The notes under the pieces are model-generated. The model was not told the origin of the DNA. It did no database searches and saw nothing but the letters and a program-made list of their open reading frames with translations. The translations under genes were made by a program, and so were the position numbers. Below are positions 31,723 to 62,925 of a DNA stretch of 64,000 bases, in pieces (the stretch's first letter is position 1; each line of letters starts with the position of its first letter). The DNA comes from Panopea generosa (lineage: Eukaryota > Mollusca > Bivalvia > Adapedonta > Hiatellidae). The stretch lies in contig CM055912.1 in assembly GCA_029582155.1 (NCBI GenBank), forward strand, positions 1,364,001 through 1,428,000, in the 5' to 3' direction.

Positions 31723-32017
31723 TATCATCCTCTTGTATACAAAACATACAGTACAGCATCAGACCCATGAACCTGCCATTTTCAATACGATAGTCTTATA
31801 TTCATCAGTTTTTCTAAACACCACTGGTGACTATGTGCACTTACTGTTTTGCTGATTGGTCAGATACAATATCATGAGTTTGCGACTGTGTTGCAGAGCC
31901 CCTGATGTGTACTGTTACTTGTCAAATGCTTCATAAAGAACAGAAAAACTGTACAGCACATCAAGGGGCACTGATATATTTTAGAGAGCATATCCTTGCT
32001 CGTAAACAATCCATGAC

Positions 32018-39831: not shown

Positions 39832-40190
39832 AATAACAAAGGGAAAGACAGAAGAAAGAGTTATGGTTCTTGCACACTACACTTCCTCTCAATGTCCTCA
39901 GTCACTGTGTGAAGATTCAACAAAATCCCTTGAATAGTTTTGGAGTTATGCTCCTGACAAAAGTGTAAATTTAATAAAGGTAGATAATTCATATAGTAAG
40001 CAAGGTAGAGTTATGGCTCTTTTACACTGCACTTCCTCTCAATGTCCTCTATTATTGAATGAAGATTCAACAAAATCCCTTGAATAGTTATGTAGTTATG
40101 CTCCAGACAAAAGTGTTACAGACGGATAGACACACAGACGGACGGAGACCATTACCATATATCCCACTTCGTCTTCAGCAGGGGGGATTA
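39832..40190. repeat. ~150-bp tandem dispersed repeat with hairpin end
   Basis: Two units with GAGTTATGGCTCTT...CACTTCCTCTCAATGTCCTC and GAAGATTCAACAAAATCCCT. Ends with ACAGACGGA units and CCCACTTCGTCTTCAGCAGG. Same repeat as 37,050-37,204. Confidence 0.8.
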
Positions 40191-40394
40191 CAAGATCCCT
40201 TGGAAGCACAGTATACAAAAAACAATAGCTTGGTTGTTAAGGCTGTTCAAGAGCTGTAATAAAATCTGCAATACCTCTAATGTTCCTTAGCAATGGTTTA
40301 GAAGTTCTAATTCTAAAGAATGAGAAGTAATAATTAACTTATTCAGTCAGTTTATATAAAAACTTCTTAGGCCGATTAATACGAAGAAAGCTTA

Positions 40395-40560
40395 AAGGAT
40401 ATTTGAACTTCCCTCGGGTCCACTTCCTGGGTAGACTCAGTACTGAGTTTTGTTCTTTTTAAGAAGCATCTGGTCAAGCTGGTGATCAAACCAGTAGCCT
40501 CCAATGTGAGCAGCCAACACTCATCTACAACACTACTGCTCCACTTAACCAAGTTAAAGT
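40395..40560 (-). mobile_element. SINE family C copy, inverted
   Basis: Inverted CACTTCCTGGGTAGACTCAG and GTGATCAAACCAGTAGCCTC blocks, as at 34,525. Confidence 0.65.
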
Positions 40561-40613
40561 ACAAATTTTATTTCAATTTGATGAAAACTAAAAGCAGTTA
40601 TGCGGAATCATCA

Positions 40614-40634
40614 TCCCCCCCCCCCCCCCCCCCC
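40614..40634. repeat. C homopolymer
   Basis: About 20 C in a row, just downstream of the CFAP54-like exon at 40,684 on its strand. Confidence 0.9.
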
Positions 40635-40683
40635 AACCGTATCAACAGATTTCACTACATTTTAATAAACCACATGCAATCAC

Positions 40684-40752
40684 CATAATACATCATGTTA
40701 GCTGCCTCAAGGTCTGTCTGTAGTTGTAACATCATGTCCAGGAGGCAATCAG
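40684..40752 (-). CDS. CFAP54-like gene, clean exon (40.7 kb)
   Basis: An acceptor (CCCCCTCCATGTCACAG) and a donor (TATTATG/GTGATT) enclose DCLLDMMLQLQTDLEAANMM then YY, in the frame entered after two bases. The other two frames have stops. The two-base start fits the one-base end of the exon at 40,848-40,932. An amphipathic helix is likely. Confidence 0.55.
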
Positions 40753-40847
40753 CTGTGACATGGAGGGGGGTTTTCATGCCATACAGTGAATCTTATTAAT
40801 TGTTAGCAGTCCGTTGTTTTCCACCCCAAGGGTGGGGGTGTAGGCAC

Positions 40848-40932
40848 CAAGCAAAGCTGTGTGAGTGCAGTTCCACAGTGCACTTACTGAGTTCTGCAGC
40901 AATGTCCTGTACTGTTCACTGTGGACTAGCAT
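40848..40932 (-). CDS. CFAP54-like gene, exon (40.9 kb)
   Basis: An acceptor (TAACAATATAATTCAG) precedes MLVHSEQYRTLLQNSVSALW then NCTHTALL plus one base, to the donor TTGCTTG/GTGCCT. A stronger-looking donor (AACTCA/GTAAGT) lies 40 nt earlier, but its phase 0 end does not fit the next exon, so the later one is preferred. The phase-0 start fits the exon at 43,202-43,386. Confidence 0.5.
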
Positions 40933-41096
40933 CTGAATTATATTGTTACATATATGTGTGATCATACAACATTTAAGGAAATATTTTGTTGTAAACAGTC
41001 CTAAATTGACACTCCAGACCATGTGTAACACTACCATTTATCTGTTTTGATTGAGTGGAATTAAACATGATGAAAATGAATATATTATGTTCCATG

Positions 41097-42003
41097 CAGG
41101 CCTTCTAAAATTGCCGGTTTTTTGGTTTTTGGACCGATTTCTGAAGTTCAAAACAGATTTTCGTTTCAAAGTTTAATAAAATATCGGTCCAGATATTTTC
41201 TATCGGTCTTATAAATTCTCATAAATTGCTCTTACCATGCCATACTGACCTGTGAAATACGCCTTGCGGCAATATCATTTGACCCAATAATCTGATTGTT
41301 TTGTCACCTGCTGTGCGAAATGATGTCAATTTTGACTAAACCATTAACAATATTAGGGGGAGTTTATCGGAAGAGTCTATCGCTATGTAGCACGCCTTCA
41401 ATGTGTGATCAGCGACCCATAGCGTTCTGTCGGTTCATCAAAAGATTATGTTTGCGTCCGTAATTTCTGTGATATACGGCTAGCCAAAGCTTGGACGGTC
41501 GGACCGACTATTGTTTGCGTCATTAAAATATTTGATAAAACGTGCAGTGTTACTTGTTTGTTTCATTTTTTTTAAGAATAACTTTAATTATATATCCGAG
41601 CTGCTTTTGGTAATTGTACGTAGTGGCTAGCTACAGCACAACGCATATCAAAAATAAAAAGTTGAATGAACCGTTACATTGGTTTCCAGTGATTATTTCA
41701 CGCAGCTTCCGAAATTTGCGCCACTTCCGGTTTGATCGAGCATTTTTAATATAATGAAAATTATTCAATAAAGCTGAAACATAATGTCAGTACTTAAAAT
41801 GTACACAATGTGATAAAGTATGTTATAAATAATACACAAATAAACTTGAAATAGTTCCCTATTAATGAATAAACGGAGAAAATACATGGTGCAGCTGACA
41901 CGGTGGGTGGGGTATGCATATATCATATAGTGATTTTTTTAAAAATAAGTGCAATTCTTACGGTAGTAAAAAACCTGGACCGATTTGCATTTTAGAAGGC
42001 CTG
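41097..42003. mobile_element. hAT-like non-autonomous DNA transposon (907 bp)
   Basis: A perfect 15-bp terminal inverted repeat CAGGCCTTCTAAAAT (right end ATTTTAGAAGGCCTG) is flanked by the 8-bp direct repeat GTTCCATG at 41,089-41,096 and 42,004-42,011. An 8-bp duplication with CAG...CTG ends is characteristic of the hAT superfamily. Both ends also carry a GGACCGATTT subterminal motif. No transposase ORF is present. Confidence 0.92.
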
Positions 42004-42011
42004 GTTCCATG

Positions 42012-43195
42012 GTGTATGATCACAAAGACGGTGACACCATCAGGAAGAAAAGTTAAAACATGAAAATTGGTTGAACCGATGGATGCGCCCCGGTATAGAT
42101 ATTTCACTAAAAATTGCTATTTTCTTGTATAATGGCAGAAATGATAATGAAGTAATTTTTTTTGAGAAGATATGAACCAATCAATCCATGTAAATACAAA
42201 CCAGCTGGAATTGTAATATACCTGACAACTTGGACAAGGACTTTGTAATGGGCAGAATTAGGGGCCATAACAATCTGTGACAAGCAAATTCAGTGAATTT
42301 ATGTCCCCCACTATTTTCAAAAGATTTGATTCAGGCATTCTTGAGTTATTACACGGAAACCCCCAAAAATATGATTTTTCACAAATAAAGGGGCATAACT
42401 GTAGAACGACAAATGCCACAACCCCTTAAATTGAACTTATCCTGTGTTTTGTTATTATAAACATTGAATTAAAATTTCAAAATATTTGATTCAGGCATTC
42501 TTAAGTTATTGCACGGAAACCAAAGTGTGACAAACAGACAGACTGACAGGCAGACCCAAATAATGTCTTCCACTTTTCGCAAAGTGGGGGACAAATATTC
42601 ATTCAACCGAAACAGAATGACAATATGGACATTTCCAATTGGCAGTGATGTATCCAAGCAATATTCATAAATGTTCAATTATCAATTGTAGAAAAATAGC
42701 GTGGACAAGGATTTGTTAACACATAATGGGATGAACAAAGTGGCAACTGCTGTATATGCTCAGTTCAGACAACATACTAACATAGTGAATGAAATATACA
42801 ATTCATCAACTAAGAAATATGTGTAATAATCCTGGAACCCTGATACCTGTAGATCTGCAGTGTTTGAACCAAGCAACAATTACCATCAGTCGCAGTTAAT
42901 TTATTTCAACCCTCCTTAAAATATGCCTTAGTCACAGTGATCTTTTTTTTTCATGGACTATTAAAGAATTTTTCAAGATTTTTTTTTAAATTTCCCTTTT
43001 ATTTTCAAATTAAAGGAGTAATTGGGTAAAATTCAAGCACAACCCAAGAAGTTTTAAAGGAGTACCCTGGAATTTAAGGACCATGGTCACCCTATCACCT
43101 GCAGATTGCACAGTTATGACTTAATTACATTTAATTGCATAATCCATATTACAAACTGAAATAATTCTACAAATACTGTGTTAAATAATACTTCC
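42012..43195. other. Intronic stretch with degenerate dispersed repeats
   Basis: At 42,250-42,600 a two-unit repeat (AAAATTTGATTCAGGCATTC, CACGGAAACC) ends in GACAGACTGACAGGCAGACC and CCACTTTTCGCAAAGTGGGG, a hairpin like other repeat ends in this window. Nothing else supported. Confidence 0.55.
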
Positions 43196-43201
43196 ACTCA
43201 C

Positions 43202-43386
43202 TATAGCCTTTCTGGAGAATGTGGATGATTTATTTATAATGTCCTGGGTGGTCAACATGATTTTCTCTGCCACCTGTTCTTGGGTCTTCTGTACCTGGAG
43301 GTGGGCGGCGCTCATATCTGACCTGTATGTGTGAGGTGTGTCCTCAATAATGGACTATTCTGTGAACATCAGCAGGGGTGGGGCAT
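43202..43386 (-). pseudogene. Minus-strand exon with one in-frame stop (43.2 kb), probably CFAP54-like gene
   Basis: Acceptor GTATATTACAG and donor GGCTATA/GTGAGT enclose 185 nt. The best frame reads APPLLMFTE, stop, SIIEDTPHTYRSDMSAAHLQ then VQKTQEQVAEKIMLTTQDII and NKSSTFSRKAI. Only one TAG interrupts 61 codons. The other frames have several stops. The phase-0 end matches the exon at 40,848. The stop may be a true lesion, a polymorphism or an assembly error. Confidence 0.55.
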
Positions 43387-43639
43387 CTGTAATATACAAT
43401 AAATCAGGTCAGACTAGTAAATACAGGCATGGTCCTCTGTAGAAACCAATCAGCATCAGAGAAAAACAATAAATAATTGTTCACTGTTTAAATTCACTGT
43501 AACACTTAAAAAGAATGTTAATACATTAAACACCAAAGTACAATTAAATAAAGTTTTAATGCAAAAATAAACCAAATGTGATAGCAGTAATTGGAACATA
43601 TTCAGAAAGAATTAACGACTAAATTTTTTGAAACTTATA

Positions 43640-43830
43640 TATTTAACATTGATTGTGAAAAAAGTTCTTGCAAATCACGCTCAAAGTGTTTCTCAGCAGA
43701 ACAAATACTAAGCATATGTTGATAAAGTGTCTTGCTTAAGAACACTTCACATGGCTGTGGCAGAGGATCAAACGCACATTTGGATCCTTTGTCAGATGCT
43801 CAACCACTAAACACAGGCGCTCTACCAATA
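43640..43830 (-). mobile_element. SINE family C copy, inverted
   Basis: Inverted CTTGCAAATCACGCTCAAAG, CTTGCTTAAGAACACTTCAC and GAGGATCAAACGCACAT blocks. Confidence 0.7.
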
Positions 43831-43847
43831 ACAAAACATATCATGTA

Positions 43848-46505
43848 CACACTGTACCAGTCTACATATATTATTTACATACTGCAGTACCAGTCTACAT
43901 ATATTATGTACGTACTGTACCAGTCTACATATATTATGTACTTACTGCAGTACCAGTCTACATATAATATGTACTTACTGTACCAGTCTACATATATTAT
44001 TTACATACTGCAGTACCAGTCTACATACCGCGGCGTGGTCTAGTGGTAGAGCATCCGCCTCGCATGCGGAAGGTCGTGGGTTCAATCCATGGCCGGGTCA
44101 TACCAAAGACTTTAAAAATGGTACTTGAAGCTTCCTCGCTTGACGCTCAGCATTTAGAGTAGAGTTCTAGGTCTGGTCGGCCTGGTGTCAGTATAATGTG
44201 ACTGGGTGGGGTATCATACCATGTGTCTGCGGCATAATACTCAAGTGTGACAGCGCTCAGAATACTGTCTCAAGTAGACACCGTCGCGATATGACTGAAA
44301 AATTGTTGAAAGCAACGCTAAACACCATACAACAACAACAACCAGTCTACATATATTATGTACATACTGCAGTACCAGTCTACATATATTATGTACGTAC
44401 TGTACCAGTCTACATATATTATGTACACACTGTACTAGTCTACATATATTATGTACTTACTGTACCAGTCTACATTTATGATGTACTTACTGTACCAGTC
44501 TACATTAATTATGTACTTACTGTACCAGTCTACATATATCATGTACTTACTGTATCAGTCTACATATATCATGTACTTACTGTATCAGTCTACATATATT
44601 ATGTACTTACTGTATCAGTCTACATATATTATGTACATACTGTACCAATCTACATATATCATGTACTTACTGTACCAGTCTACATATATGATGTACTTAC
44701 TGTACCAGTCTACATATATTATTTACTTACTTGACCAGTCTACATATGATGTACTTTCTGTACCAGTCTACATATTTGATGTACTTACTGTACCAGTCTA
44801 CTTATATTATGTACTTGCTGTACCAGTCTACATATATGATGTACTTGCTGTACCAGTCTACATATATGATGTACTTGCTGTACCAGTCTACATATATGAT
44901 GTACTTACTGTACCAGTCTACATATATTATGTACATACAGTACCAGTCTACATATATTATGTACTTACTGAACCAGTCTACATATAGTATGTACTTGCAG
45001 TACCAGTCTACATATATTATGTATTTATGTACCAGTCTACATATATTATGTTTTTACTGTACCAGTCTACATATATTATGTACATACAGTACCAGTCTAC
45101 ATATATTATGTACATACAGTACCAGTCTACATATATTATGTACTTACTGAACCAGTCTACATATAGTATGTACTTGCAGTACCAGTCTACATATATTATG
45201 TATTTATGTACCAGTGTACATATATTATGTATGTACTGTACCAGTGTACATATATTATGTATGTACCAGTCTACATATATTATGTACTTACTGTACCAGT
45301 CTACATATATTATGTATGTACTGTACTAGTCTACATATATTATGTATGTACTGTACCAGTCTACATATATTATGTATGTACCAGTCTACATATATTATGT
45401 ACTTACTGTACCAGTCTACATATATTATGTATGTACTGTACCAGTCTACATATATTATGTATGTACCAGTCTACATATATTATGTACTTACTGTACCAGT
45501 CTACATATATTATGTATGTACTGTACCAGTCTACATATATTATGTACTTACTGTACCAGTCTACATATATTATGTACTTACTGTACCAGTCTACATATAT
45601 TATGTACGTACTGTACCAGTCTACGTATATTATGTACTTACTGTACCAGTCTACGTATATTATGTACTTACTGTACCAGTCTACATATATTATGTATGTA
45701 CCAGTCTACATATATTATGTACTTACTGTACCAGTCTACATATATTATGTACTTACTGTACCAGTCTACATATATTATGTATGTACTGTACCAGTCTACA
45801 TATATTATGTACTTACTGTACCAGTCTACATATATTATGTATGTACTGTACCAGTCTACATATATTATGTATGTACCAGTCTACATATATTATGTACTTA
45901 CTGTGCCAGTCTACATATATTATGTATGTACCAGTCTACATATATTATGTACTTACTGTACCAGTCTACATATATTATGTACTTACTGTACCAGTCTACA
46001 TATATTATGTACTTACTGTACCAGTCTACATATATTATGTACTTACTGTACCAGTCTACATATATTATGTATGTACTGTACCAGTGTACATATATTATGT
46101 ATGTACTGTACCAGTCTACATATATTATGTACTTACTGTCTACATATATTATGTATGTACTGTACCAGTCTACATATATTATGTACTTACTGTACCAGTC
46201 TACATATATTATGTACTTACTGTACCAGTCTACATATATTATGTATGTACTGTACCAGTCTACATATATTATGTACTTACTGTACCAGTCTACATATATT
46301 ATGTATGTACTGTACCAGTCTACATATATTATGTATGTACTGTACCAGTCTACATATATTATGTACTTACTGTACCAGTCTACATATATTATGTACTTAC
46401 TGTACCAGTCTAAATATATTATGTATGTACTGTACTAGTCTACATATATTATGTACTTACTGTACCAGTTTACATATATTATGTATTTATGTACCAGTCT
46501 TAAAA
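43848..46505. repeat. 30-bp satellite array (about 80 units)
   Basis: Consensus TACCAGTCTACATATATTAT plus GTACTTACTG. Common variants replace CTTACTG by TGTACTG or drop part of the unit. Since 30 is divisible by three and the unit has no stop in the plus frames, ORFs of up to 410 codons result. They consist only of YQSTYIMYLL-like repeats and are not evidence of a gene. A block at 44,932-45,035 is duplicated about 179 bp downstream. A SINE (44,028-44,340) is inserted near the left end. Confidence 0.97.
44028..44340 (+). mobile_element. tRNA-Ala-like SINE (family D) inserted in the 30-bp array
   Basis: The head GCGTGGTCTAGTGGTAGAGC then CGCATGCGG and GGTCGTGGGTTCAATCCATG folds like a tRNA: anticodon stem TCCGC/GCGGA around CTCGCAT, anticodon CGC. 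The body ends in GCTAAACACCATACAACAAC. Flanked by ACCAGTCTACATA at 44,015-44,027 and 44,341-44,353. The array itself could supply that match by periodicity, but the left unit being cut at exactly this point supports a target duplication. The intact head keeps pol III A- and B-box motifs. Confidence 0.9.
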
Positions 46506-46879
46506 CACAGACTAATGGTTTGTTAAGTTGGTCACTTTTTTACAATAACAACTTTAATAAATGCATTACCTTGATATAATATTTCTATTATTTTTGGAAA
46601 TATCAACAGAATTATGCCCAAATAAATTGGACGAAAACTGATAATATTTGACGTTTGTTAATATTGACATCCCACTTATTTTAAAGTCATTTCTATCAAA
46701 CAACTCACCGGTAGTATCTCTAGGTATCTGTCAATCAACAAGTCTGATTAACACTTCACTAAACATTAACTATTAAATAACACTATTACAACATTTGGCA
46801 ATTTTTACCAAATATTTATCTAGCCAAATCATATCTGAAAACCTTAAGAAACTTGTGTCACCTAAAAATAAGTAGAAAT

Positions 46880-46884
46880 GCGTG

Positions 46885-46924
<40 letters not shown>

Positions 46925-46925
46925 A
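46880..46925. repeat. (TCTG)n microsatellite
   Basis: About ten TCTG units. Followed at 46,973 by AACAAGAGCTGTCGGAAGGA, a motif resembling the start of common mollusc dispersed repeats. Confidence 0.9.
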
Positions 46926-46939
46926 ACACAAATGTCAGA

Positions 46940-48100
46940 AACCATTTTTTTTTAAATACTGGTACTAAGTTAACAAGAGCTGTCGGAAGGACAAAGTGCC
47001 CAACCATTTCGATGCTGTTCTAAAACAATAGCTTTTTCAGGAAATAAGTACCAAATGGAAGACAATTTATATAAAACTCAGGGGTGGTAAGATAAAGCTT
47101 TAATTATTATATAATGCTTGTCTGTTAAAATTAAATTAGCAAAAGGATTCAACAACAATATTTATTTCATTATCCACTGTTTGTTTTTTAGTATCTAGTG
47201 AGTTCATTAAAAAGGATTTTTTAAACTTGTCTATTTTACATCTTACAACTCAGATAAATCATGCTAGGATGAACCAGTACTAATCATTTTCGGATAAAAA
47301 ATTTTAATTTACAGTAATTAAACAGGATAGGTCCATTCTTGATATATTGTAACTATTTTCCTCCTTAAAAACTGCCTAAACATTTACTGTAAATACCTGT
47401 ATATATCTTTGAGAAATGTCGCCAATCTTTAAACATATGCAAGCCCATTGCTAGCATTTAATAACAGCACCCAAACAAACAACAACATGGGCAGAGGAAA
47501 AGTTGAAAATATGTCATTGGTGTATCACAGGGGATGACATCTTTTGGTTCCGTCTACAAGTGGAAAAATCAAAGTTTCAACTTGCAAAACTTTGTAGTAA
47601 TACCAGTATGTTAGAATTACAGTATGTAAATATCCCTACATTAAAACATAAACTGAGCATAACGATCATTTTGTAAAACATTACAAAAGAAAACCAGTTA
47701 CTTTATACCAATTACATTTTGCATTTAAATGAAAATAAAAATTGAGTTATTTCCCTTCCTTTACAAAATTCAGACTATATTATCCAAATTATTTTAGTTA
47801 AATGGTAGCCACTTTGGAATTCAGACATCCTGAATTTGAGTTTCAACATCTCAGTAAACTTTAATGAAAATTAAACAAGTAATTCAGGAAGAGTAGTGGT
47901 CATGAGTAAAAGTTTACGGACATACGGTTAGCTGCTTCTGCTGGTTTTTTATCAGTTAAGCTGAAATTTGAGATAAATAGGTAATATGAATGAACATAAA
48001 TAGACTGGAACCTCACAAACAGTAAGAAAACCTGAAATACTAACTGTGTAAAATATACAATATCAACTCCTGGTCAATCTGTCTATTTTATCGTTCTGTA
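46940..48100. other. AT-rich stretch without a recognisable gene
   Basis: No supported exon. A possible tiny minus-strand exon ending at a GTGAGT donor lies just before it (46,700-46,735; LLIDRYLEILP) but is too short to trust. Confidence 0.4.
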
Positions 48101-48114
48101 TTGCGGATCCTCAC

Positions 48115-48164
48115 CACAAACTTCAGTTTATTTGTCTCTGTAACCTTGTATGTTGCCTTAACTC
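48115..48164 (-). CDS. Candidate minus-strand exon
   Basis: Acceptor (CATCATCATACAG) and strong donor (TTTGTG/GTGAGG) enclose VKATYKVTETNKLKFV in the frame entered after two bases. No family recognised; which neighbouring gene it belongs to is unclear. Confidence 0.4.
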
Positions 48165-48434
48165 CTGTATGATGATGAGATTACAATCGCTCATGAGTAG
48201 AAAATCTCTGTAAATATCATTTAAACAGATAATGGAAAACAAAAAAATTAATTCAATTTATTCAACCTATATGAAATACAAGGAAATACAAAAAGTAAAT
48301 TCTTCAAGCTGCTAGCTACCTGAAAAAGAAACAATTTGGAAGATATTGTGAATTTAAAATAGCGTATTGGTACTCATACCAGGTTTCACCAAAAAACAAT
48401 AACTAAAAAACAGAAAGTAGTACATTTGAGTAAT

Positions 48435-48657
48435 CCATGGCCAAGTGGTCTAAGGCACTGTCTCATTTCACCTCTCAGCACTAAGGTCATACGTTCGATC
48501 CAATGCAAAAAAAATTTGTGAAAAAGCTTGCCAATTATTTGTGGAAGAATGGTGGTTTACTCAGATTCAATCTGAGGTCTTCCTCAATCATTCAAACTGG
48601 ATATACCATAATATAACCTGCAATGTGTATAAAATTGCATTAAACCCCATTCAAGTA
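48435..48657 (+). mobile_element. tRNA-headed SINE (family B)
   Basis: Head CCATGGCCAAGTGGTCTAAG and GGTCATACGTTCGATCC, body with CTGAGGTCTTCCTC and tail TTAAACCCCATTC. Confidence 0.85.
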
Positions 48658-48899
48658 ATATATTGTAAGAATCCTATTTTATCGGTAGTATTTATATTAG
48701 TGGTTTTATTAAGGTGCTGCCATTTAATAACGTATACATGTATATATTTAGTTGAGTAGTTTACATAACAATTGTATCTAACTCGATATCAACACGCATT
48801 ATTGACATCATTCCCAGCAACCATCAAACACTAGAATATTAGTTAGATTTTTAAAACATATTTAGAATATCAAAGTCATGACTAAACCTACTAGATGAC

Positions 48900-48984
48900 C
48901 TTGCCAGTTGTAGTAATTCTGTAGATTTGGTCAGGCATTGTGTGTATTGGGTACATTCATCAATCTCTGTGCCACAATGTAATC
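48900..48984 (-). CDS. EGF-like exon (48.9 kb)
   Basis: Acceptor TATCTGCTTTCAG and donor CTGGCAAG/GTCATC enclose LHCGTEIDECTQYTQCLTKS then TELLQLA. The C-x-TEIDEC-x4-C pattern is the junction between two EGF-like domains, the second being calcium-binding (D-x-DEC type). It is uninterrupted over 27 codons. EGF domains are extracellular. The gene identity is unknown; two more degenerate EGF-like pieces lie upstream on the same strand at 53.1-53.9 kb. Confidence 0.55.
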
Positions 48985-49054
48985 CTGAAAGCAGATATGT
49001 ACCATATTTACTGGCAAAGACAATTGCTTTAACCAAATAACCAGTTACAAGAAT

Positions 49055-50530
49055 TGTTCATTTCTAGACAAATGTTCTACAGAAAATCTGATTATATTCA
49101 GGCCAAATTTATAATGTTCAATACAAATATTGTCTATAAATTCAGCAACTTCAAGAACCAATTGTATAACATCAGGGGTTCTGCAGGGTTCTATATTAGG
49201 TCCATTGTTATTTTTACTGTTCATAAATTATTTCTCATTGTTTATAAATAACGCTTCAACAACTGACCTATTAGTGCAACATATTGCATGTCTCTAAGGA
49301 GCCTTTTCAAGATATGTTATTTTGCTTCTACCAAGCCAGCGTTATGGACAGCAGATCGGATATCCAAATAATAAAAAAGCTGTCTATTCACACCTTATTT
49401 AATCAGGCTACTGACCTATGTGGTGCATTCAACATGGTATGGTATTGAATACTGACAACATCAGAGTAATGCTAATCACCTCTCTTCAGAAACCATATCA
49501 ATTTACAACTTACGTACAACAGTACAGAATTAACAGCTACAACAGGCGATAAAATCCTTGGAATATGTGTTGATAATTGCAATACGATGGAATAAACAGT
49601 TACAAATTCTCTCCAAAAAAGTTTCATCAATTAAATATGGCTATTATCAAATGTAATTTAAAACATTACCTTTCTTAATCAACCATAGAATGTTGTATTA
49701 CAAAGTTTATACACAATCACATTTCAATTATTGTTGTACAAATATTTCAAATAGAAATATAAATAAGTTAATTAAACTGCAGAGGCGAACATGCAAATAT
49801 ATTTTAGAAAATGAATATGAAAGTCTATATTTTTATTCGAAAGACTGAGTACTTTGTCTATAAATCAAATTGTATTTATGTAAACTGTAAAAATCATGTG
49901 TAACATAGCAAATGGTACAGCTCCGCCATATTACTGTTAACTATTCATCTTAGGGGAGTTAATTAATAATGAATCCATCTATTATATTCAAGCTCAAATA
50001 AAAAAAAAATTTTTTCCCCGAGATCTAAAGTAGAACTGTTTAAAGGTAGTCTATCATATTCAGGTGCATTTATGGAATAGTATTCGACTTGTATAAGTAA
50101 CGCTGTTAGTTAATTGTGTAATTTGGATAAAAGGAAACTTAAATTAGAAATGCATGTACCTCCAACAGTTATATATGCTTAATAAATACCATACCTGTCT
50201 ACAGTTACTAGTTTTTGTAAAGATATTTGCTTTCTGTTTCTGTTTGTTTTGATTTTATTATTGTTGTGTTTTTTTACCATTATATTCAAGTTGCATGTGT
50301 ATCAGAATTGAAATACCAATACAAAAAGCGAGAGTATGTGTGTGTGTAGATGAGAGATGGTATCATGTGCATGTTGTAAGATTTTTGGTTATCTATTATG
50401 TGTGATATATGTAGAAGATGAATGTAAGTTATTTCTTATCATTTTGATTTGTACTTGTTTGTTTATACGAGGGCTTCAGGGAAGATTGGTTTACCAATTG
50501 AGTTACCCTCTTTAAATAAACTAACTAACT
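49055..50530 (+). mobile_element. LINE copy, plus strand, heavily broken
   Basis: Begins in the reverse-transcriptase domain (VLQGSILGPLLFLLFINY-like reading near 49,170-49,230). It continues through KILGICVDN (about 49,550) and a YK.YTQSHFNYCCTN-like block (about 49,700), and ends with GGGCTTCAGGGAAGATTGGT and an (AACT)n tail. Many stops and frame changes. 5'-truncated at the RT domain. Confidence 0.8.
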
Positions 50531-50547
50531 AATTTACTTACTAAGAA

Positions 50548-51340
50548 ATGACTGGGTGGAGTATCATACCATGTGTCTGCAGCATGATACTCCGGAGTGT
50601 CAGTATAATGTGGCTGGGTGGAGTATCATACCATGTGTCTGTAGCATGATAATCCGGAGTGTCAGTATAATGTGACTGGGTGGAGTATCATACCATGTGT
50701 CTGCAGCATGATACTCTGGAGTGTCAGTATAATGTGGCTGGGTGGAGTATCATACCATGTGTCTGCAGCATGATACTCCGGAGTGTCAGTATAATGTGAC
50801 TGGATGGGGTATCATACCATGTGTCTGCAGCATGATACTTCGGAGTGTCAGTATAATGTGACTGGGTGGGGTATCATACCATGTGTCTGCAGCATGATAC
50901 TCTGGAGTGTCAGTATAATGTGACTGGGTGGAGTATCAGACCATGTGTCTGCAGCATGATAATCTGAGTGTCAGTATAATGTGACTGGGTGGAGTATCAT
51001 ACCATGTGTCTGCAGCATGATACTCAGGAGTGTCAGTATAATGTGGCTGGGTGGAGTATCATACCATGTGTCTGCAGCATGATACTCCGGAGTGTCAGTA
51101 TAATGTGACTGGGTGGGGTATCATACCATGTGTCTGCAGCATGATACTCCGGAGTGTCAGTATAATGTGACTGGGTGGGGTATCATATCATGTGTCTGCA
51201 GCATGATACTCCAAAATGTCAGTATAATGTGACTTGGTGGGGTATCATACCATGTGTCTGCAGCATGATACTCCAAAGTGTCAGTATAATGTGACTGGGT
51301 GGGGTATCATACCATGTGTCTACAGCATGATACTCCGGAG
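50548..51340. repeat. 62-bp array (about 13 units) amplified from inside a SINE
   Basis: The unit GTGTCAGTATAATGTGACTG plus GGTGGGGTATCATACCATGT and GTCTGCAGCATGATACTCCGGA is the same 62 bp that occurs once in the family D SINE at 44,189-44,250. Unit spacing is 62 bp in almost all copies. Directly after the array comes the 3' part of the SINE. Confidence 0.95.
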
Positions 51341-51425
51341 TGGCTCAGAATACTGTCAAGCAGACGTAGTCACAATATGACTGAAAAATTAATAAAAGTT
51401 ACGCTAAACACAATACAACAACCAA
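51341..51425 (+). mobile_element. 3' part of SINE family D following the 62-bp array
   Basis: GGCTCAGAATACTGTCAAGC, ATATGACTGAAAAATTAATA and GCTAAACACAATACAACAAC match 44,255-44,340. The tRNA-like head is missing to the left of the array. Confidence 0.9.
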
Positions 51426-51734
51426 ACAAGAAATGAAATACTTAAACTATGGAACCACTTTCAGATTTATAATATAAAATATGAAACTCACAAAATAGTA
51501 ATAAGACACAACAACTCTGCAACTATTGAAAATTAATGAACACTGGATTTCCTTTTTTAAATTAAATATATACAACACATATTTAAATTGGTTGACAATT
51601 TAAATACATTCTTCAGAAATAACTATATCTTTTTCGTGATAAATTCAACAGAAATACCAAAACAACAATTACCAGTAGTTTACAATGGAGAGCTTCATCT
51701 TCACAAGAACATCTCATGCTTTGTAAACTAACAG

Positions 51735-51995
51735 TGGATCCTTTTTGGCTGAGTGGTCTAAGGTACCATCTCAAGATCACTTACCTCTCACCACTAAGGT
51801 CATAGGTTCGAGTTCTGCTCGCTCCAAAAACTTTATGTGACAAAATTTACTAGTTACTTGCAGAAGGACGGTGATTCAATCTACTCAGTCAGACTCAGTC
51901 TGAGGTCTTCCTCCACCAGTAAAACTAGATATATGCCATATATAACCTGAAATGTGTTGAAAATGGTGTTAAAGCCCATTCCAAAAAAAAATTGT
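51735..51995 (+). mobile_element. tRNA-headed SINE (family B), well preserved
   Basis: Head TTGGCTGAGTGGTCTAAGGT and GGTCATAGGTTCGAGTTCTG, full body and GTGTTAAAGCCCATTCC tail. Confidence 0.9.
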
Positions 51996-51999
51996 AAAA

Positions 52000-52870
52000 T
52001 AACATAAAGGGGGGTAACAAATACTTTCACTGAAACCATAAAACCACTACTAGGCTTATACTTCTCATGGATATGAATGTGAGACTATACACAACATTTT
52101 ATCATATAAGTTGACCATCATTATTAAGATATCAGTAATTAAAAATACCAGAAGTAAAAATCTTAAAATATCTTCTTCTCATAATGAAACTGCAAAACAA
52201 ATTTTGAAAATATTCAATTAGAAATCATCACCAAATACAGTTCTACTAGATCTGTTGACATGGCACATTTGTCCATTGGGTTAAAATGACACCAGTTTTT
52301 TCTCCAGATTCAGATTTGTTAAAATGACTTGGTTCAACTGTCTTATGAGGAGGGGTCCCAAATACTGATCTGTTTCAAAATCCTTTTTCTCAAAAACCAG
52401 TCTGTCAAATTTGTTCTTATGTGGCACAGATGTGACCAATAAGTAGGGGATTCAAGTCTATATGAATCGAGGGGCTCATATTTATAGGGGCCTTACTATG
52501 GGGAATTCAAAGTTTTACATAGGGATACTATATTATTGGGGAATGGAAAATTCTCATTTCTTCATCCATTTTTGCAAAAAAAATATTATTCAGTTTAAGA
52601 TCTGAAGCATCATCTAGTCATAGCATACAAGATTTGGGTAAAAAAGAGTTTCAGGTAGGTTACCATTTAAATATATATTACAGATTGAAATATCTCCAAT
52701 AGAACTGAAGTTTTTCTTAATAAATGGTTCAGTCAATTTTTGTTTGTAGAAAGTATGAACTCATAGGCAGATCTGGGTCTACACTGTCTGCAAATGGGGC
52801 ACCATTGCTACAGAAAGCCAAGAACACTATCTCATGTCAGCATGTAAACGTTAATTCTTTATAACAAGAA
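52000..52870. other. AT-rich stretch without a recognisable gene
   Basis: No exon, RNA or element ends that I can support. Confidence 0.4.
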
Positions 52871-52875
52871 GGGTT

Positions 52876-53085
52876 TCCCCATGGTAAAGTGGTCCAAGAT
52901 GCAAATCAACATCACTTTCCTCTCAACGTTGAGATATTGGTTACAACCCTGAATGACCCAGAAACTTTACATAAGAAAAGTTTACCTGTTACTTGCAGAA
53001 GAATAGTGGTTTCTACTTCCTCCACCAATAAAATTGGATGCAAAACAGAACCTGTTATGTGTTGGAAATGACACTGAACAATATT
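52876..53085 (+). mobile_element. SINE family B copy, degenerate
   Basis: CCCCATGGTAAAGTGGTCCA head and CTTCCTCCACCAATAAAATTGG body with TGTTATGTGTTGGAAATGAC end. Confidence 0.7.
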
Positions 53086-53101
53086 AAAACAATACTCTCA
53101 C

Positions 53102-53310
53102 CTGGTACACACTGGCATGAGGGAGGACAAATCTGCACCATTCCACTGTCTTAGTACATCCCAGTTGTTGCCGGCCCAGTACACCACAAATACAAATATG
53201 TAGGTTCTAGCCACATCTTATGAACTCAGCGTCCATCATTCACACTCATCCATGTCATCCTGGCACATGTCACCTGACCAACCCATTATACAGATGCAGG
53301 TGGGACAGAC
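53102..53310 (-). pseudogene. Degenerate exon with EGF-like start (53.2 kb)
   Basis: Between CACTTTAAG and the strong donor ACCAG/GTGAGA one frame reads VCPTCICIMGWSGDMCQDDM then DECE, stop, a short stop-ended piece, and then VARTYIFVFVVYWAGNNWDV and LRQWNGADLSSLMPVC. The first part fits the end of an EGF-like domain (C-x-C-x2-GWSG-x2-C) plus a DMDEC start. The second part is protein-like, with a hydrophobic stretch, but unidentified. Two in-frame stops make it a pseudogene or wrongly assembled. Confidence 0.5.
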
Positions 53311-53723
53311 CTTAAAGTGCCACAATGATAAACTATTATATAAGCAAACTGATATTTGTTTTACTGTTCTATAAAAAAACATATTATGATAGTAAATCAA
53401 TAAAGATCGATACAAATATAATTTTCTTGACACATTAAACAGATTCGTTGCAAAGATTTTCATAATTTTACTTTAAAAAAAAATCCAAGATGAAAAAGAA
53501 AACGGTTAGGGTCAGGACTCAATTTTAGGGTTGGTCGGGTAAACAGTCAGGTATGTTTTGGTTTGGCCTTATAAATTTATGTTTAACATCTGCACTTCTT
53601 GTTTGATAAATATTATTGTATTTGACTATTATATTATACATCACATGGTTATCTATCTATATCAATAAAGAATAAGCACATATTCGGATGTTGCATTTGT
53701 GACAAAAGATGTTTTGTCTCAAA

Positions 53724-53925
53724 CAATACCTCTATATATCTGAACACAGCTTCCTCCATTGTCACCTCCCATCACTGTGCATTCATCATTCTGACTGTCA
53801 CATGTGACTCCCAGGTAGATGCCTACACACTGCCATGTGGAACCAACTGTATTGTATTCTCCACACATGTACCTTCATGTAGCCAGGGCAATGACAACAG
53901 TTGGCTATCTTCACACCTGTCTCCT
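53724..53925 (-). pseudogene. Degenerate EGF-like exon (53.8 kb)
   Basis: After an acceptor (TTTGTTTGTAG) one frame has DRCEDSQ and LHEGTCVENT. Another has STWQCVGIYLGVTCDSQNDE then CTVMGGDNGGSCVQ, and a donor-like ATAGAG/GTATTG follows. Cys spacing and G-x-T-C-x-D fit an EGF-like domain. The frame must change inside, so it is broken as read. Confidence 0.45.
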
Positions 53926-53940
53926 ACAAACAAATCCACA

Positions 53941-53962
53941 GATATATATATATATATATATA
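53941..53962. repeat. (TA)n microsatellite
   Basis: About ten TA units. Confidence 0.9.
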
Positions 53963-53999
53963 TACATTCGTACATCAAGGACTTACATAGATATTGACT

Positions 54000-54285
54000 A
54001 TTGATGGACTATTTAGCATTATTTTAATGTCACAGACAATCAGTTAACCTAACTACTGTTTCCTGGGATCCCAAAAGGTTAACCAGTACTCGAGCACACC
54101 CCATCTCCACAAGGAACTGATAACTTTCCCACTTGAATCAGCAGAGAGAGAGAGAGAGGACTGATAATGAGATGCAATGTCGTATATCAATCATCACAGA
54201 GATTGTTGCCATGCAGGGATTGAAACTCTTGACCCCTGGATTGATAGTCAGAAACATTACAGACTGAGCTATTGGGAAGCAATGT
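54000..54285 (-). mobile_element. SINE family A copy, degenerate
   Basis: Inverted family A: TATTTAGCATTATTTTAATG tail side, GTTAACCAGTACTCGAGCAC, an inserted (GA)n run, and CCCCTGGATTGATAGTCAGA head. Confidence 0.85.
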
Positions 54286-54289
54286 TGTG

Positions 54290-57140
54290 TTTTAATTGTG
54301 AATTTAGAAAACAATAACTGGGGTATAAATACATTACTTTCACTTTGTCTACAGTGTGAATAGAAAAAAAAAAACTAGTGAAACATGACCCCCATCATTT
54401 CTAATTACATTTTAGCTCTTTGGGTGTCAAGAAACAATAAAATGTTACTGTCTGTCCATTTTAAACATTATGTCCATTGTAGAAATAAGAAGGAAAACAA
54501 TTGTGGCTTACACTACAGCTGTACAGGGGCTAGTATCAATATACGTGTCATTTCCCTATATAGTACCAGTGACACATCTGTTATTTAGTCACTGATGGTA
54601 TGCTGTATTGGGATATAAACGAGCACATGTTCTTGTTCTTCCTGGTAAAGTGCAGGTCCCACTCTGGGGCATAAACGCACTTTGTGTATTACATATAACT
54701 CTTTTGAATATAACAGAAAATATTAATAAATAACCGTTAACTTAAAATTGTTATATAATTACAGCTCTGCTATTGTACTCTTATCGTTATAACAAACAGA
54801 CAGGCACGAAATGTTGAATTGATGATGCTGGTGTTTTATCGCGAATACACATGACAAAAGTTCTCGACATTACATTTTATCTAGACTCGTATGTTTACAG
54901 AGCTATTTTCTATCTAAAATAAAATGTGTTAAACAACCTGGAATATCAAGAGTTCATGCTATGTTTTTAATACTAACTGCCTGGCTCTCGTTTCTGAATA
55001 AATCGAAGATTCAACAATTAAGTTCCATTTGTCATGTGCTTTTTTGGTTTTAATAATCTTGATCACCTGCGACGCTTACTTGTGTTTTTTCCTTGTGTCA
55101 CATGACTTGCACTCATCTTCATAATGCCAAACCGAGGCAAACCCCTCCTGGGGACCTGCGTCGTCATACCGACAAAGACTGTTAATATTTGGTTTAAACA
55201 TACTTATTCATTCAAATGTACCTATATACACATAAGTTTAGGTATAAATATGGATTAGAACGGAAGATAAAATCTTATAAAGTTCTTGTCCATGACATAT
55301 ATCAATTGTGAACAAATTTGGCAGATTATCAACAATTTGATTTATGGCATTTATGCTCTTACCATTACGAATATGACATAGTTCAAAATATATTTAATAA
55401 AAATGTTTAACATACTTTTAAGAATATTGTTTCTGATATTATAAGAAACTTAGAAAATGAAGTGAGTAATTAGAAAAAAAAGAAAGGTGATTAAAATGAT
55501 TAAAGTAATGGATAATTATGTGAATTCACATAATAATAACGGTTAACATTAAAAATATAAATTAAAAAACTGGCCCGTGGCTACTCTGAGGCCAGGGAAG
55601 TCGTTGCCTGTCTGTCTTTCGGGGCGCAACAAACGGTACGAAACAAAGAGGCACTATATTTAATATCCTTGTTGCATTTTAAAACTAAATAAATTTTAAT
55701 ACTGTACTAATTGAGCATTCACTAGTACAACAGAACCACAAGAATCTGAATCCATGTGAACGCTATACTGTCACAGACGGAGTATACATATATAAGTAAC
55801 CGGGCGGAATATTCCGTGCATCCGATCAGCTTTTTGTTACCCTTTGAAAACAAACGAGTGGTACTGTAGGGCTGTCCAGATGAAACCGAACCAAATATTT
55901 CTATAACTGTTGAAAACTATACCATACATGCTGTAAATACAATTTGTGATTTGCAATGTGTTGAAATTTGAAATTAAAAGAAAAAAAGCAATAAAATATT
56001 GTTGCACGTGATTTAAAAAAAAAACAGTGAGTGATTTATATAATAAGTGGATTTGCAACTAGGGCGGAAAGTAAAAACAAATTTAGTAGCCCAAAAACTA
56101 CTCTTTATAAAATGATATTGCCACTCCCATTCCAATCCACTATAGTATAACTGGCCATGAATGCGCATATAATACTATCTTTACGTTTACGTTTTCAGGA
56201 AAGTCAATAGAAACAATTTTCTTATGAATCGATGGGAATAAGATCTATGTTATTTTCAATTTTATTTTTTTTTTCTAAAATCCTCAGAAAGCTGTGTTAA
56301 AACATTAACAGCATTTTTAATAGGACGAATGTTGATACTGTAATTTCGGCCTCGAATATTAGCCTATATTGTTGGATGCTGCTACATACTTGAATGTAGC
56401 TTATATGTCACCAAGCTTATCAGAATTGTTTTAACTCCCAGAATATTTTAGAAACTGGGCTGCGTTCAGCACCGTTAAACAGCAAACACGTTTTATATCT
56501 GGTTCCCTAAAAGTGTTGCGTGTTGTGTGCTTATCTGAGATTGAGCCAGTGTCCAAAAAAATATGTTAGTTAACGTTAAACCGAACTGACCGCAGCCTTG
56601 AAATTTGTTACACTATTTGTAATATTGGACGGATAATCAAAACACGATTGTAGTAGTGAAGTTTATATAATTAGTGCATCAATAATTAAAGCTTATATTT
56701 CATACTGACGCATACATGGATATAAACGACTTCCTGAAGGCCCCGCTTAGATACGTGGGGTTAACAAATATAGAAAATAAACACATCTTATCATATTGTT
56801 AATATGAAATTTATTTTTATATTAAAATACAAAAAATAGAACAGTGCATACATAGCATTTATTTAAGATAAAAACATGCATCATTTTTAATACGTATGAT
56901 ATGGGGGGGGGGGGGGAGTTCTCATATTTACAATCAGCATATACGATATTGTTATTTTCAGTTTTGAATCACGTATATTTGTCATCAACAACATATACAT
57001 GCAATGTCGCCATGATTCTTAACTTCCGTGATATATCATTTTTGAATGCGTGCATGGATGCGTGATACTTGAATGTGTATTGCAAATGCCACCAAGCTTA
57101 TCTGATTATTTTCCAATTCCAAGAATATTTTACAAACGGA
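54290..57140. other. AT-rich stretch without a recognisable gene
   Basis: Scattered homopolymers, including a G-run at 56,904-56,917. No exon borders with protein-like frames and no element ends that I can support. Confidence 0.4.
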
Positions 57141-58869: not shown

Positions 58870-61040
58870 ATACTACTCAAAAACTATTAATTTTGATCCG
58901 TCATATAGGTTTATACGTTGTGAACTTTGTTTCATCTTAGAAATTCCTGGTTACGATGTGAAGGCTATCGAGCAGTATTAAGGTATTGTCTATTTTAGAA
59001 TTGGAATTGGAATTTCATTTCAAGTTTGCTATACTCCTATTGAAACATCGATTTTGTCACGTTTTTTGGAAGATTTGATATACCAGACCATTCGGATTTA
59101 TTAGTTTGCAGAAATGAGATGCATTTTATCCATTTTAAATAGAATGTTAATTTTTAAGATATTTATAGCGTTTTTCCCCCTGATATACTCCCTTTAAAAC
59201 AATACTAGTTATACAATTATTCAATGTATATATGTATGAGTCCCTTTATTTAAAGTAATTACTCCGCAAACTCTCACATTTACCTTGTGATAATAAACGA
59301 AATATTCCTAACATACACACATACGCACATGCGTATCATTTGAATTCCCTACAGCGATTTTTTAAAAAAAGAAAAACAAATGGAATATGCAATAAGCTGA
59401 TGCTCAAGTGGGGTAAGGGCCTTAGGTGTTTATAAAAAATATATCAAGCAACGTTTTTATCTTTTAGATCTAGATGGTTATATTTTTTATGTACGAACGG
59501 TCTGTATAACATTATTCCGCGTAATAGGCAGACCTTGCAACAGTCTATCTTCGTGTGTTTTATTTAAGTTTGTTAACTAGACAGTCTACGGATTTTGACT
59601 TCGTTCATTTTTTCCGAACTGGAAATAGAGCGAATCTGTTCCGCGGAGTGTGTAAGTTTGTAAACGCGGAAAAACATGTTGGGATTTTCTAATTCTATCG
59701 ATCTAAAGGGTCTATTTAGTACTAGTGTGTTTTGTTTGATAGCCGTGGTTAATAACTAAATAGTAAAATAAACTTCTCCATTCTCAATGATAATAGCAGT
59801 GTAGTTACAAATTTAAATCCTAAGCAGTACTAGTATATCAGTGAATACATTTACTAGGTATAAATTTAAATTTCAAAAACACATTAAGAAATGTAAATTA
59901 AAAAAAAATATTACCGCATATAATAGTAGGTGATTCATGATATCCATGTAGCCTTCATCACATATGTGACTGATGATATAGAAGAGTTTAAGAACGGATA
60001 TAGAAGGTGGAACAACGATGGGAGTTGATCAATGGACGAGAGAACGGACAGTTTGACGGAATCAATTTCTTTGGCTAATGTTGACCTCTATCCCAGTGTG
60101 AATCAATAAACATACAATTAGACATATCGATTCAGTAAAATATATAAAACATACGGATCGTACTGATAAACAGTACACTCTGCAGGGGCGTACCTGAACG
60201 GGTTTGAACTGTCCGCCAGAAACAAATAGCAGCGATGTTGCAAGTAGAGATATTTGTTGGAGAGGGTGTTTGGGAGTCTCCCCGAAGACAATGTAGGAAA
60301 TTAGAAGACAAATGATGTGTTCGTATGTTATATTGCAGCACCGCCTTGGATTTTGTTTGTCACTTTGTATACTGCACATAAGCATTGTTTTCAAAAGCAT
60401 AGTTTATCACGCCTCTCACGCTGACAGACAAGAGTAACCAGTAACAATGTATCACTACGGTATATACTTCAAACAAGGAAAGGCGTATATATACAGTGAT
60501 CGTACTTAGCAATAATTACTGCGGGAGAAAAAGGTAAACTTCCACTGATATATTCGGAAGAAATTAGCATGTTACCCTCTCAGTTTTTAGTTGTTATGCA
60601 CAGTTTAGAGTTCATGTTTTCACTTTTTGCTGACGAATAGTACACAATAGTACTGCTCTGTGTTCACTTCATATCAATATACCATTCAACGTATAATCGA
60701 ATTCCCGATTATGCTTTTGTCGTTTCACACCCATCTAGCTTAATATAATCTCACGAATCCGCTCCTGGTCCCCTGTACTTGATGTGACTTGTATGATATA
60801 GTGATGTGTTACATGCAGGCATTTGTATTGTGTAGCATTGAACTTGAAATGTATAAACCTTACAACTTAATGTATCGATTAAGTATAATATTTAAACTTA
60901 TTTTATACTAGTATATCATGGACATAACGCTGTGTGTTAACATTAAATCAATTTTATTCCCAGTCTTGAGAAATCTACTTTCGTTTTCGTTTACGAGAAA
61001 TACAAATCAGGTCAATGTGTAAACTGTAATAAAAACAAGG
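58870..61040. other. AT-rich stretch upstream of the B-box gene
   Basis: No supported exon. Minus-strand frames at 60,062-60,400 are open but not convincingly protein-like. No clear TATA/initiator arrangement can be assigned to the gene at 61,049. Confidence 0.4.
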
Positions 61041-61048
61041 TAGACAAA

Positions 61049-61377
61049 ATGGCCACGTCAATTTATTGCGAATCGGATGAAACATTTGATTTCACTTGTT
61101 CGGTATGTAAGAAGGAGAAAAGGACCAGAGAAGCTACGAAATATTGCGTGGAATGTAATGATTATTATTGTAACAAATGTGTAGAGGTTCACGGAAAAGT
61201 ACCATTTATGGAAGGTCATAAAATCCTAGGAAAATCAGAGTTTCCGACGAACGTCTCCGGGAGTTTGGTGACAGTGCCGACGGACAGATGTCCACTACAT
61301 CCGTTAAAATTGCTGGACATGTTCTGCCAGAACGACGACGAGATTGGGTGCACCGTATGTATGGCCGTTAAACACAG
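61049..61377 (+). CDS. First coding exon of a B-box (TRIM-like) protein
   Basis: The ATG (ACAAAATGG, acceptable Kozak context) opens 109 complete codons to a donor at CACAG/GTACAT, leaving two bases. Two B-box zinc fingers are visible. The first is C17-x2-C20, C33-x2-C36, C41-x2-C44, H48 and H57 (B-box1-like). The second is C81-x2-H84, C93, C101-x2-C104 and H109 (B-box2, its end lying in the next exon). There is no RING finger ahead of them, so this is a RING-less TRIM-like protein or a family of bivalve B-box proteins that usually continue with coiled coil and NHL or other C-terminal domains. Reading through the donor gives 21 extra residues before a stop. The intron starts with a 56-bp minisatellite; later exons are not in the window. 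Confidence 0.85.
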
Positions 61378-61800
61378 GTACATTTGTGTATTTGTAATCG
61401 TAAATAGAACCGTTATAGATGATAAACTAATAATTTACTTGTAAAATATTAGATTTAAGGACTTTAACATTTACCGTTAGAGACTCCTTAGGCATAGGCT
61501 GACCCAGGCCAGGTGGGTTCCACAAGGTGGGGGTATAAGATAGTAAACTATGCTGTCTGTAACCAATATTTCAGGAATCCCAGTGGGGTTGGACCCCGTG
61601 ACACCACCCCCTCCCATACACACCCCACCCCCAAACACGCCTATATGAATATACACTATGTAATGAATGTTGTTTTTCTGTTTATAAACACAACATATAG
61701 TATATGTCACCAACTAGAATGTGCATTCCAGGCTCACTCCATGTGTACAATGACATGACGTTTACATACAGAGAGAAATGAATCGTCAACAAATGGAGAT
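61378..61800. other. Start of intron 1 of the B-box gene
   Basis: Contains short open frames on both strands (for example at 61,513-61,758), but they have low-complexity, C/A-rich composition and no borders. Confidence 0.5.
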
Positions 61801-61855: not shown

Positions 61856-62925
61856 CAGTTATCCAAGTATTACGGCCACTCCTCTAGCTCCCTGGAACCT
61901 CACAGGGTCTCATAATATCCAAGTATTACTGCCGCTCCTCTAGCGCCCTGGAACCTCACAGGGGCTCATAATATCCAAGTATTACTGCCGCTCCTCTAGC
62001 GTCCTGGAACCTCACAGGGGCTCATAGTATCCAAGTATTACTGCCGCTCCTCTAGCGCCCTGGAACCTCACAGGGGCTCATAGTATCCAAGTATTACTGC
62101 CGCTCCTCTAGCGCCCTGGAACCTCACAGGGGCTCATAGTATCCAAGTATTACTGCCGCTCCTCTAGCGTCCTGGAACCTCACAGGGGCTCATAATATCC
62201 AAGTATTACTGACGCTCCTCTAGCGCCCTGGAACCTCACAGGGGCTCATAATATCCAAGTATTACTGTCGCTCCTCTAGCGCCCTGGAACCTCACAGGGG
62301 CTCATAATATCCAAGTATTACTGCCGCTCCTCTAGTGCCCTGGAACCTCACAGGGGCTCATAATATCCAAGTATTACTGGCGCTTCTCTAGCGCCCTGGA
62401 ACCTCACAGGGGCTCATAATATCCAAGCATTACTGCCGCTTCTCTAGCGCCCTGGAACCTCACAGGGGCTCATAATATTCAAGCATTACTGCCGCTCCTC
62501 TAGCGCCCTGGAACCTCACAGGGGCTCATAATATCCAAGTATTACTGCCGCTCCTCTAGCGCCCTGGAACCTCACAGGGGCTCATAATATCCAAGTATTA
62601 CTGCCGCTCCTCTAGCGCCCTGGAACCTCACAGGGGCTCATAATATCCAAGTATTACTGCCGCTCCTCTAGCACCCTGGAACCTCACAGGGGCTCATAAT
62701 ATCCAAGTATTACTGCCGCTCCTCTAGCGCCCTGGAACCTCACAGGGGCTCATAATATCCAAGTATTACTGCCGCTCCTCTAGCGTCCTGGAACCTCACA
62801 GGGGCTCATAATATCCAAGTATTACTGCCGCTCCTCTAGGGCCCTGGAACCTCACAGGGGCTCATAATATCCAAGTATTACTGCCGCTCCTCTAGCGCCC
62901 TGGAACCTCACAGGGGCTCATATTT
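61856..62925. repeat. 56-bp minisatellite (about 19 units)
   Basis: Unit ATATCCAAGTATTACTGCCG plus CTCCTCTAGCGCCCTGGAAC and CTCACAGGGGCTCATA. It is GC-richer than the surroundings, with very high similarity between units. It lies in the presumed first intron of the B-box gene. Confidence 0.97.

Follow-up and report, generated by a model that had tools for sequence, protein, structure and literature searches.

A probable SINE-derived satellite in Panopea generosa, and related arrays within other copies of its parent SINE

A 62-bp tandem array in the genome of Panopea generosa is very probably a SINE-derived satellite: the central segment of a tRNA-headed SINE would have expanded in place, the array would have travelled as the passenger of a larger duplicated segment (the duplicon), and the same segment would have expanded independently in many other SINE copies. 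The array lies in the window analysed here, a stretch of 64,000 nucleotides (contig CM055912.1, positions 1,364,001 to 1,428,000). What is observed, and what this explanation draws on, is SINE sequence at array edges, a graded series of unit numbers, periods, joints and units that are specific to individual loci, and flanks common to the duplicon copies. The finding belongs to the SINE-derived satellites, and the series of births seen within this one genome is unusually complete. Satellite origins tend to be obscure, since arrays of great age no longer have their parents beside them. In the present case a single genome holds the parent SINEs together with a copy of two units, short arrays that retain both ends of the SINE, and longer arrays, with different joints as the marks of separate births, and the birth of satellites from a jumping element, by separate head-to-tail copying at many genomic places, can be seen clearly.

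The array was called by Tandem Repeats Finder with a period of 62, 94% matches and a score of 1392; its position and those of the related features are collected in Table 1. The initial annotation took the unit to be identical in content and length to one internal segment of the SINE some 6 kb upstream. Homology with that segment holds and identity does not: BLASTN of SINE 44033-44345 against the array gives one alignment of 152 columns (84%, E = 3e-36) that spans the junction of the last unit and the SINE 3' end, the remaining units align over 55-73 columns each at 85-97%, and the best match between a unit and the SINE segment is 56 of 58 bases. The equality of length depends on register, as the GTGT spacing in the consensus is 60 bp and a cut at CAG gives 62. 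The further claim that the SINE's own 3' end follows the array is confirmed by the alignment from last unit to tail, and the right edge at 51343 has an edge test score of 55, with none of 200 shuffles as high. At the left end of the window's array a SINE head was looked for by BLAST and by the edge test, and is absent. What is found there instead is shared by 17 of the 20 places of the duplicon, counting the window, for which the fetched sequence takes in the left edge of the array.

Table 1. Coordinates and supporting details of the array, its parent SINE, the duplicated segment and the loci with SINE sequence on both sides of an array (slashes mark the boundary between units).
Feature	Position in window	Strand	Details and basis
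62-bp array	50549..51342	+	12.8 copies; commonest joint CCGGAGT/GTCAG; TRF, unit listing
SINE 3' end, directly 3' of last array unit	51343..51429	+	BLAST, 84% to SINE over 51278-51429
Non-SINE left flank of array, without SINE head	50480..50548	+	Common to duplicon copies
5' part of single-unit parent SINE (tRNA-like head and spacer)	44033..44186	+	Rfam tRNA, 27.4 bits; BLAST; consensus
Central segment, once in parent SINE, homologue of array unit	44187..44246	+	BLAST to array units; coordinates from sequence
3' part of parent SINE, CAA repeats at end	44247..44345	+	Sequence, BLAST, consensus
Duplicated segment with array, minimum extent in window	40000..55900	+	End probes, SINE and array tail in same order at four other places
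Two-sided loci, 2 to 7 units			L097, 2; L076, L089 and L101, 4; L074, 5; L092, 6; L084, 7
Two-sided loci, 11 to 30 units			L080, 11; L078, 13; L086 and L087, 14; L082, 15; L091, 21; L095, 23; L002, 30

The head of the parent SINE scores just below the gathering score of 29 for the Rfam tRNA model (E = 0.025), and ARAGORN called no tRNA in it. An Rfam scan of window positions 43000-53000 with E up to 1 returned only this tRNA-like head and two weak matches to miRNA models in a 30-bp array. That the array unit is a known RNA was rejected, since the unit has no match in that scan. Members of the MetaSINE superfamily have in common a 66-bp central Meta domain, and the parent SINE may be one of them; a literature text search with four pieces of the unit of 17-19 bases each found no match.

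Across the 1.474-Gb genome the joint between SINE head and unit occurs 409 times exactly and at least 17,694 times with up to three mismatches, a count that takes in the heads of array-bearing copies too; the reversed control gave 0. All 30 SINE copies fetched with the whole-SINE query (L009-L038), which were drawn from the 40 best-scored candidates, have a single unit at the match. Target site duplications were found in five of six single-unit copies, with a chance of at most 0.004 for L015, L016, L020 and L088 and 0.032 for L085; the sixth, L081, has none. The single-unit SINE of the window sits within a 30-bp array of unit ACCAGTCTACATATATTATGTACTTACTGT (43838-46500), so its insertion probably split a pre-existing 30-bp satellite; other copies of the segment, for example L011 and L012, have the same array. 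At L024 and L035 (both on contig C12), a SINE copy is nested in another copy of its own family.

Outside the window's own family, 25 fetched array loci consist of the SINE with 2 to 30 units; this count leaves out L079, which is L075 copied in inverted orientation, and no flank is visible at L098 and L099. Over 26 loci including the window, SINE sequence adjoins all 20 right and 19 of the 21 left array edges in reach, each beyond all 200 shuffles, in a sample biased in that most loci were found by queries holding the SINE head or tail. A SINE match is missing at two left edges, those of the window locus and of L094, where the test was anchored 63 bases before the true edge. The bases before the true first unit of L094, CCTGATCGGCCCGGT, resemble the end of the SINE head by eye. 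The left edge of L100, whose array runs past the fetched stretch, is counted as not reached. Six loci were picked by the joint pattern of the 60 class alone; four of them have an edge in reach, with SINE sequence there in every case. Arrays that are widespread without SINE ends, the pattern that would have spoken against the initial annotation, were not found among the fetched loci. All searches were seeded from the central segment, and arrays of other SINE parts lie beyond their reach.

Both sides of the array are SINE sequence at 15 loci (Table 1), among them L097, where an otherwise complete SINE has two units and no more, with a joint of 60 bp. With the single-unit copies, the series runs through 1, 2, 4, 5, 6, 7, 11, 13, 14, 15, 21, 23 and 30 units; a three-unit copy was not seen among the fetched loci. 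The proposal that a satellite was born from inside a SINE finds its support in this graded series of otherwise ordinary copies. The expectation that array-bearing copies carry target duplications is supported in part, by three of the nine tested (L002, 10 bp; L080, 12 bp; L086, 8 bp), the other six having no significant duplication. At least 64 array places were listed outside the duplicon, from searches yielding 12, 23, 7 and 22; for most of these only the coordinates are known, a few were recognised from one joint each, and some may be mutual duplicates.

The periods of the arrays differ from locus to locus, with values of 54, 59, 60, 62, 64, 66 and 74. Loci of period 60 (L084, L086, L089, L091 and part of L092) have the joint CCAGT/GTCAG or one close to it, and those of period 62 (L076, L087, L095 and L073, for example) have CCAGTGT or close, followed by GGCAG, GACAG, AGCAG or GTCAG. 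The period is 64 at L075, 66 at C3:48730535 (from match spacing) and 74 at L080, and L092 starts with 54-bp units; the units of these last two loci include the end of the SINE head. Joints of the 60 and 62 types occur together in the four-unit array of L101, and L002 is layered: nine 59-bp units next to the head are followed by seventeen of 62 bp, most of which belong to the CCGGAGT type, and then by four of the type proper to the tail. When up to three mismatches are allowed, the joints between units number 4,501 for the 62 class, whose pattern also catches the CCGGAGT type of the duplicon, and 1,198 for the 60 class.

Unit sequences were compared within and between 20 loci, with the number taken from any one locus capped at its first 15 units. 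Of these 228 units, 205 have their closest match exclusively within their own locus (shuffle mean 5.9), and for another 18 there is a tie. Within loci the mean number of edits per unit is 1.4-5.6 in 18 of the 20, and 10.1 in L080 and 9.0 in L092. Units within a locus are more alike than SINE copies are, the heads of array-bearing copies being mostly 74-88% to the consensus over their aligning parts (98% over 49 bp in L078), although unit edits and head identities were measured on different parts of the element. Because periods and joints differ by locus and units are most like those of their own locus, the arrays arose repeatedly, most likely in place after insertion, and the combination of different joints with private variants points to separate primary duplications.

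Not all of the array sequence need have been born at its locus, since the CCGGAGT unit type is present at three unlinked places with different flanks: the duplicon, L002 and L078. Among the loci read, no other sharing between different flanks was seen. Units 10-26 of L002 and 12 of the 13 units of L078 have the GGAGT-type joint of the window's duplicon (one as GGAAT), and at both loci the unit adjoining the SINE tail is of another type. The change to the CCGGAGT type makes a perfect palindrome, ACTCCGGAGT. Because L002 has this type in common with L078 and the duplicon, it is likely either that some array sequence was transferred from locus to locus or that template switching produced the palindrome more than once. 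If such transfer were the rule, arrays would have passed between loci as DNA, by way of gene conversion or of circular molecules, and homology would have directed them into SINE copies, with few births and many transfers. The units of L002 and L078 just described fit that picture, which we consider unlikely overall, as most loci have joints and variants of their own and the palindrome could arise more than once by template switching. A derivation of the CCGGAGT joint from the 60-bp joint plus GG was dropped in favour of substitutions in the 62-bp joint.

The initial annotation also likened the array to composite VNTR-bearing retroposons. This likeness is not supported: periods and units are mostly locus-specific, and the window's array was multiplied in a DNA-level duplication. 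An SVA-like element, in which the array-carrying SINE is itself mobile and arrays are spread by retrotransposition, could account for the array-bearing copies with target duplications (L002, L080 and L086) and for the CCGGAGT type at places with different flanks, L002 among them. It is nevertheless highly improbable: besides the locus-specific units and periods, the tail-side unit of L002 and L078 differs from the CCGGAGT type, which a retrotransposed sister would not need, and both sets that have whole arrays in common, L075 with L079 and the duplicon, also have long common flanks (compared by reading). Since these long flanks are shared along with whole arrays, both sets are attributed to DNA duplication. 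According to the relevant portion of PMC4432496, the internal VNTR of the SVA and LAVA composites is likewise remodelled at the DNA level, with microhomology at breakpoints; there, however, the VNTR is part of the mobile element and common to its subfamilies, whereas here units belong mostly to single loci. That a satellite came first and the SINE captured one of its units is the least probable reading of all, for although the SINE's central domain needs some origin, head-to-unit joints exceed the unit-to-unit joints counted (17,694 versus 4,501 and 1,198), and one old array could hardly give rise to arrays of several registers that are bordered by the head or tail of the SINE.

Expansion of the SINE's own central segment in place is thus the preferred reading, and for the window it is combined with segmental duplication. 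The window's array is one headless SINE copy that expanded during the multiplication, often close to chromosome ends, of the larger segment carrying it; in the window this segment measures at least 15.9 kb. Probes from 40.0-40.4 and 55.4-55.9 kb both match contigs C24, C17 and C11 at 93-99%, and the left probe additionally matches C19, C13 and C12 at 92-93%. Left probe, SINE, array tail and right probe are collinear within 12.9-16.2 kb at C24:2.51 Mb, C24:3.39 Mb, C17:52.9 Mb and C11:66.4 Mb. The array tail and right flank are the same at all 30 duplicon array places (L002 excluded), and the flanks of the duplicon array copies align to the window. On the left side, 17 of the 30 have the window's left flank (window included), three have a part of the window at 47.66-48.18 kb, and in ten the array continues beyond the fetched edge. 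The common tail and right flank, the flanks aligning to the window and the collinear probes argue that one headless SINE copy grew an array and that the larger segment carrying it was copied.

Unit numbers vary among the duplicon copies, with 4, 5, 6, 8, 10, 13, 14, 16, 17, 19, 21, 22 and 24 or more (up to at least 25) by BLAST unit matches. Of the 19 array places of the duplicon that are on contigs of chromosome size, 9 are no more than 2 Mb from a chromosome end, where 5.3% are expected (P = 2e-7), with the extents of C4 and C8 taken as lower bounds from size order and with four of the 19 assigned without fetched flanks, C2:69119250 and C18:445786 by unit similarity and nearby probe matches and C1:4754124 and C10:70809252 by tail matches. 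Among single-unit SINEs, 1 of 31 lies near a chromosome end. To arrive at these 31, which include two within the duplicon, nine of the 40 candidates were set aside: the copy in the window, a neighbour on C14, two copies on C20 and C21, and five on C24.

Several features of the duplicated segment may be recorded here. Copies of about 16 kb have end probes matching at 95-99% at four further places, with older partial matches of 83-93% elsewhere, and several segment copies are on the 4.3-Mb contig C24. At L058, L059 and L060 (C23) the left edge of the array is joined to the sequence from 47.66-48.18 kb of the window, as if a deletion or exchange breakpoint lay inside the array. Array and tail are themselves doubled in two places on C24; the tails of L040 and L042 are 1,084 bp apart on that contig, the array plus SINE tail being tandemly doubled in what amounts to a higher-order step.

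A sequence of events can be proposed. The starting point would be a tRNA-headed SINE whose central segment measures about 60 bp; it would have left a copy here, one that is headless today, and this segment would have been duplicated in tandem at the DNA level. The array would have grown, after insertion, by further slippage or unequal exchange, with homogenisation; the locus would have been multiplied as a passenger of the larger segment, with its enrichment near chromosome ends, and independent expansions of the same central segment would have taken place in many other SINE copies. For the first duplication, short matches beside the hairpin of the segment may have been joined by replication slippage or microhomology-mediated repair, candidate matches being GTGT 60 bp apart, GTCTG 54 apart, CAG or GTG giving 62, and a looser match for 74. 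In the consensus SINE, GTGT flanks the centre on both sides at a distance of 60, and GTCTG recurs at 54. Such microhomology was rejected as a statistical outlier, the best direct repeat at offsets 30-110 scoring 7.5, which is within the shuffled range (median 7, 95% 9).

The consensus unit can form an 11-bp stem, and its fold leans towards greater stability (z = -1.65; 9 of 200 shuffles as good), while the DNA folds of two window stretches are no better than shuffles (z = 0.47 for the rotated unit and 0.63). A hairpin kept by selection was rejected, pairing being equal to shuffles (90.8% of cells pair, versus a shuffle mean of 90.9) and covariation support being absent, with one pair only changing on both sides. 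More speculatively, and with some doubt on our part, the conserved centre of the SINE could be expandable by its own nature, as a segment that forms a hairpin and has short matches at its side. Retrotransposition would then sow satellite seeds by the thousand, and a small fraction of the ageing copies would turn into arrays, each adopting one register out of a few. Were this so, the SINE family would be a self-renewing satellite library. With parents and arrays side by side in one genome, the model of seed, duplication and expansion becomes measurable, in terms of birth rate per SINE copy, choice of register, and growth with age.

SINE-derived satellites (sSats) have been described in squamates by Vassetzky, Kosushkin and Ryskov (2023; PMC10702118), whose section 19 leaves it uncertain whether such satellites are restricted to that group; if the present genome is that of a bivalve, as its source Panopea generosa implies, the kind extends to molluscs. 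Like the sSats, the arrays here repeat a piece of a SINE that also exists as single copies scattered over the genome, and their terminal unit continues into the SINE on one or both sides. As far as the available sections of PMC10702118 go, further likenesses are a tandemly repeated unit that covers part of a tRNA-SINE (67 nt in snakes), a longer terminal unit reaching the SINE end, independent variants, and the presence of short loci of low copy number alongside long homogeneous ones. The same sections describe a snake unit made of box B and part of the body, whereas the unit here is central; major sSats that keep one SINE end, whereas both are kept here at 15 loci; and a preference for subtelomeres, a property reported for sSats though it does not define them, whereas of the 64 places listed outside the duplicon 3 lie within 2 Mb of a chromosome end, which is no enrichment.

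The nearest mollusc case found in literature listings is PcH-sat of the limpet Patella, a satellite derived from Nin-SINE (PMC11121367). It too is a mollusc satellite containing SINE sequence, but is a single pericentromeric satellite with a 118-bp SINE segment, and a graded unit series is not described in the available parts of that paper. An expansion of an internal SINE motif from 1998 is alike in kind, with a hexamer, (GGCAGA)n, and not a 60-bp domain (as cited in PMC9659126 and PMC6947457, which in the parts available also list B1-, Alu- and other SINE-derived tandem repeats).

The window has further arrays at 31875-33889, 61860-62922 and 63732-64000, with units of about 36, 56 and 24 bp, in none of which BLAST of the SINE against the window found a match. 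Pieces with weak matches to a Mutator-like transposase lie at 11411-12684 on the minus strand (PF20700; E = 7e-5 and 1e-3, both below the curated cut-off), and an open stretch at 60947-61441 on the plus strand has TRIM-like B-box zinc fingers (Pfam PF00643; E = 6e-9).
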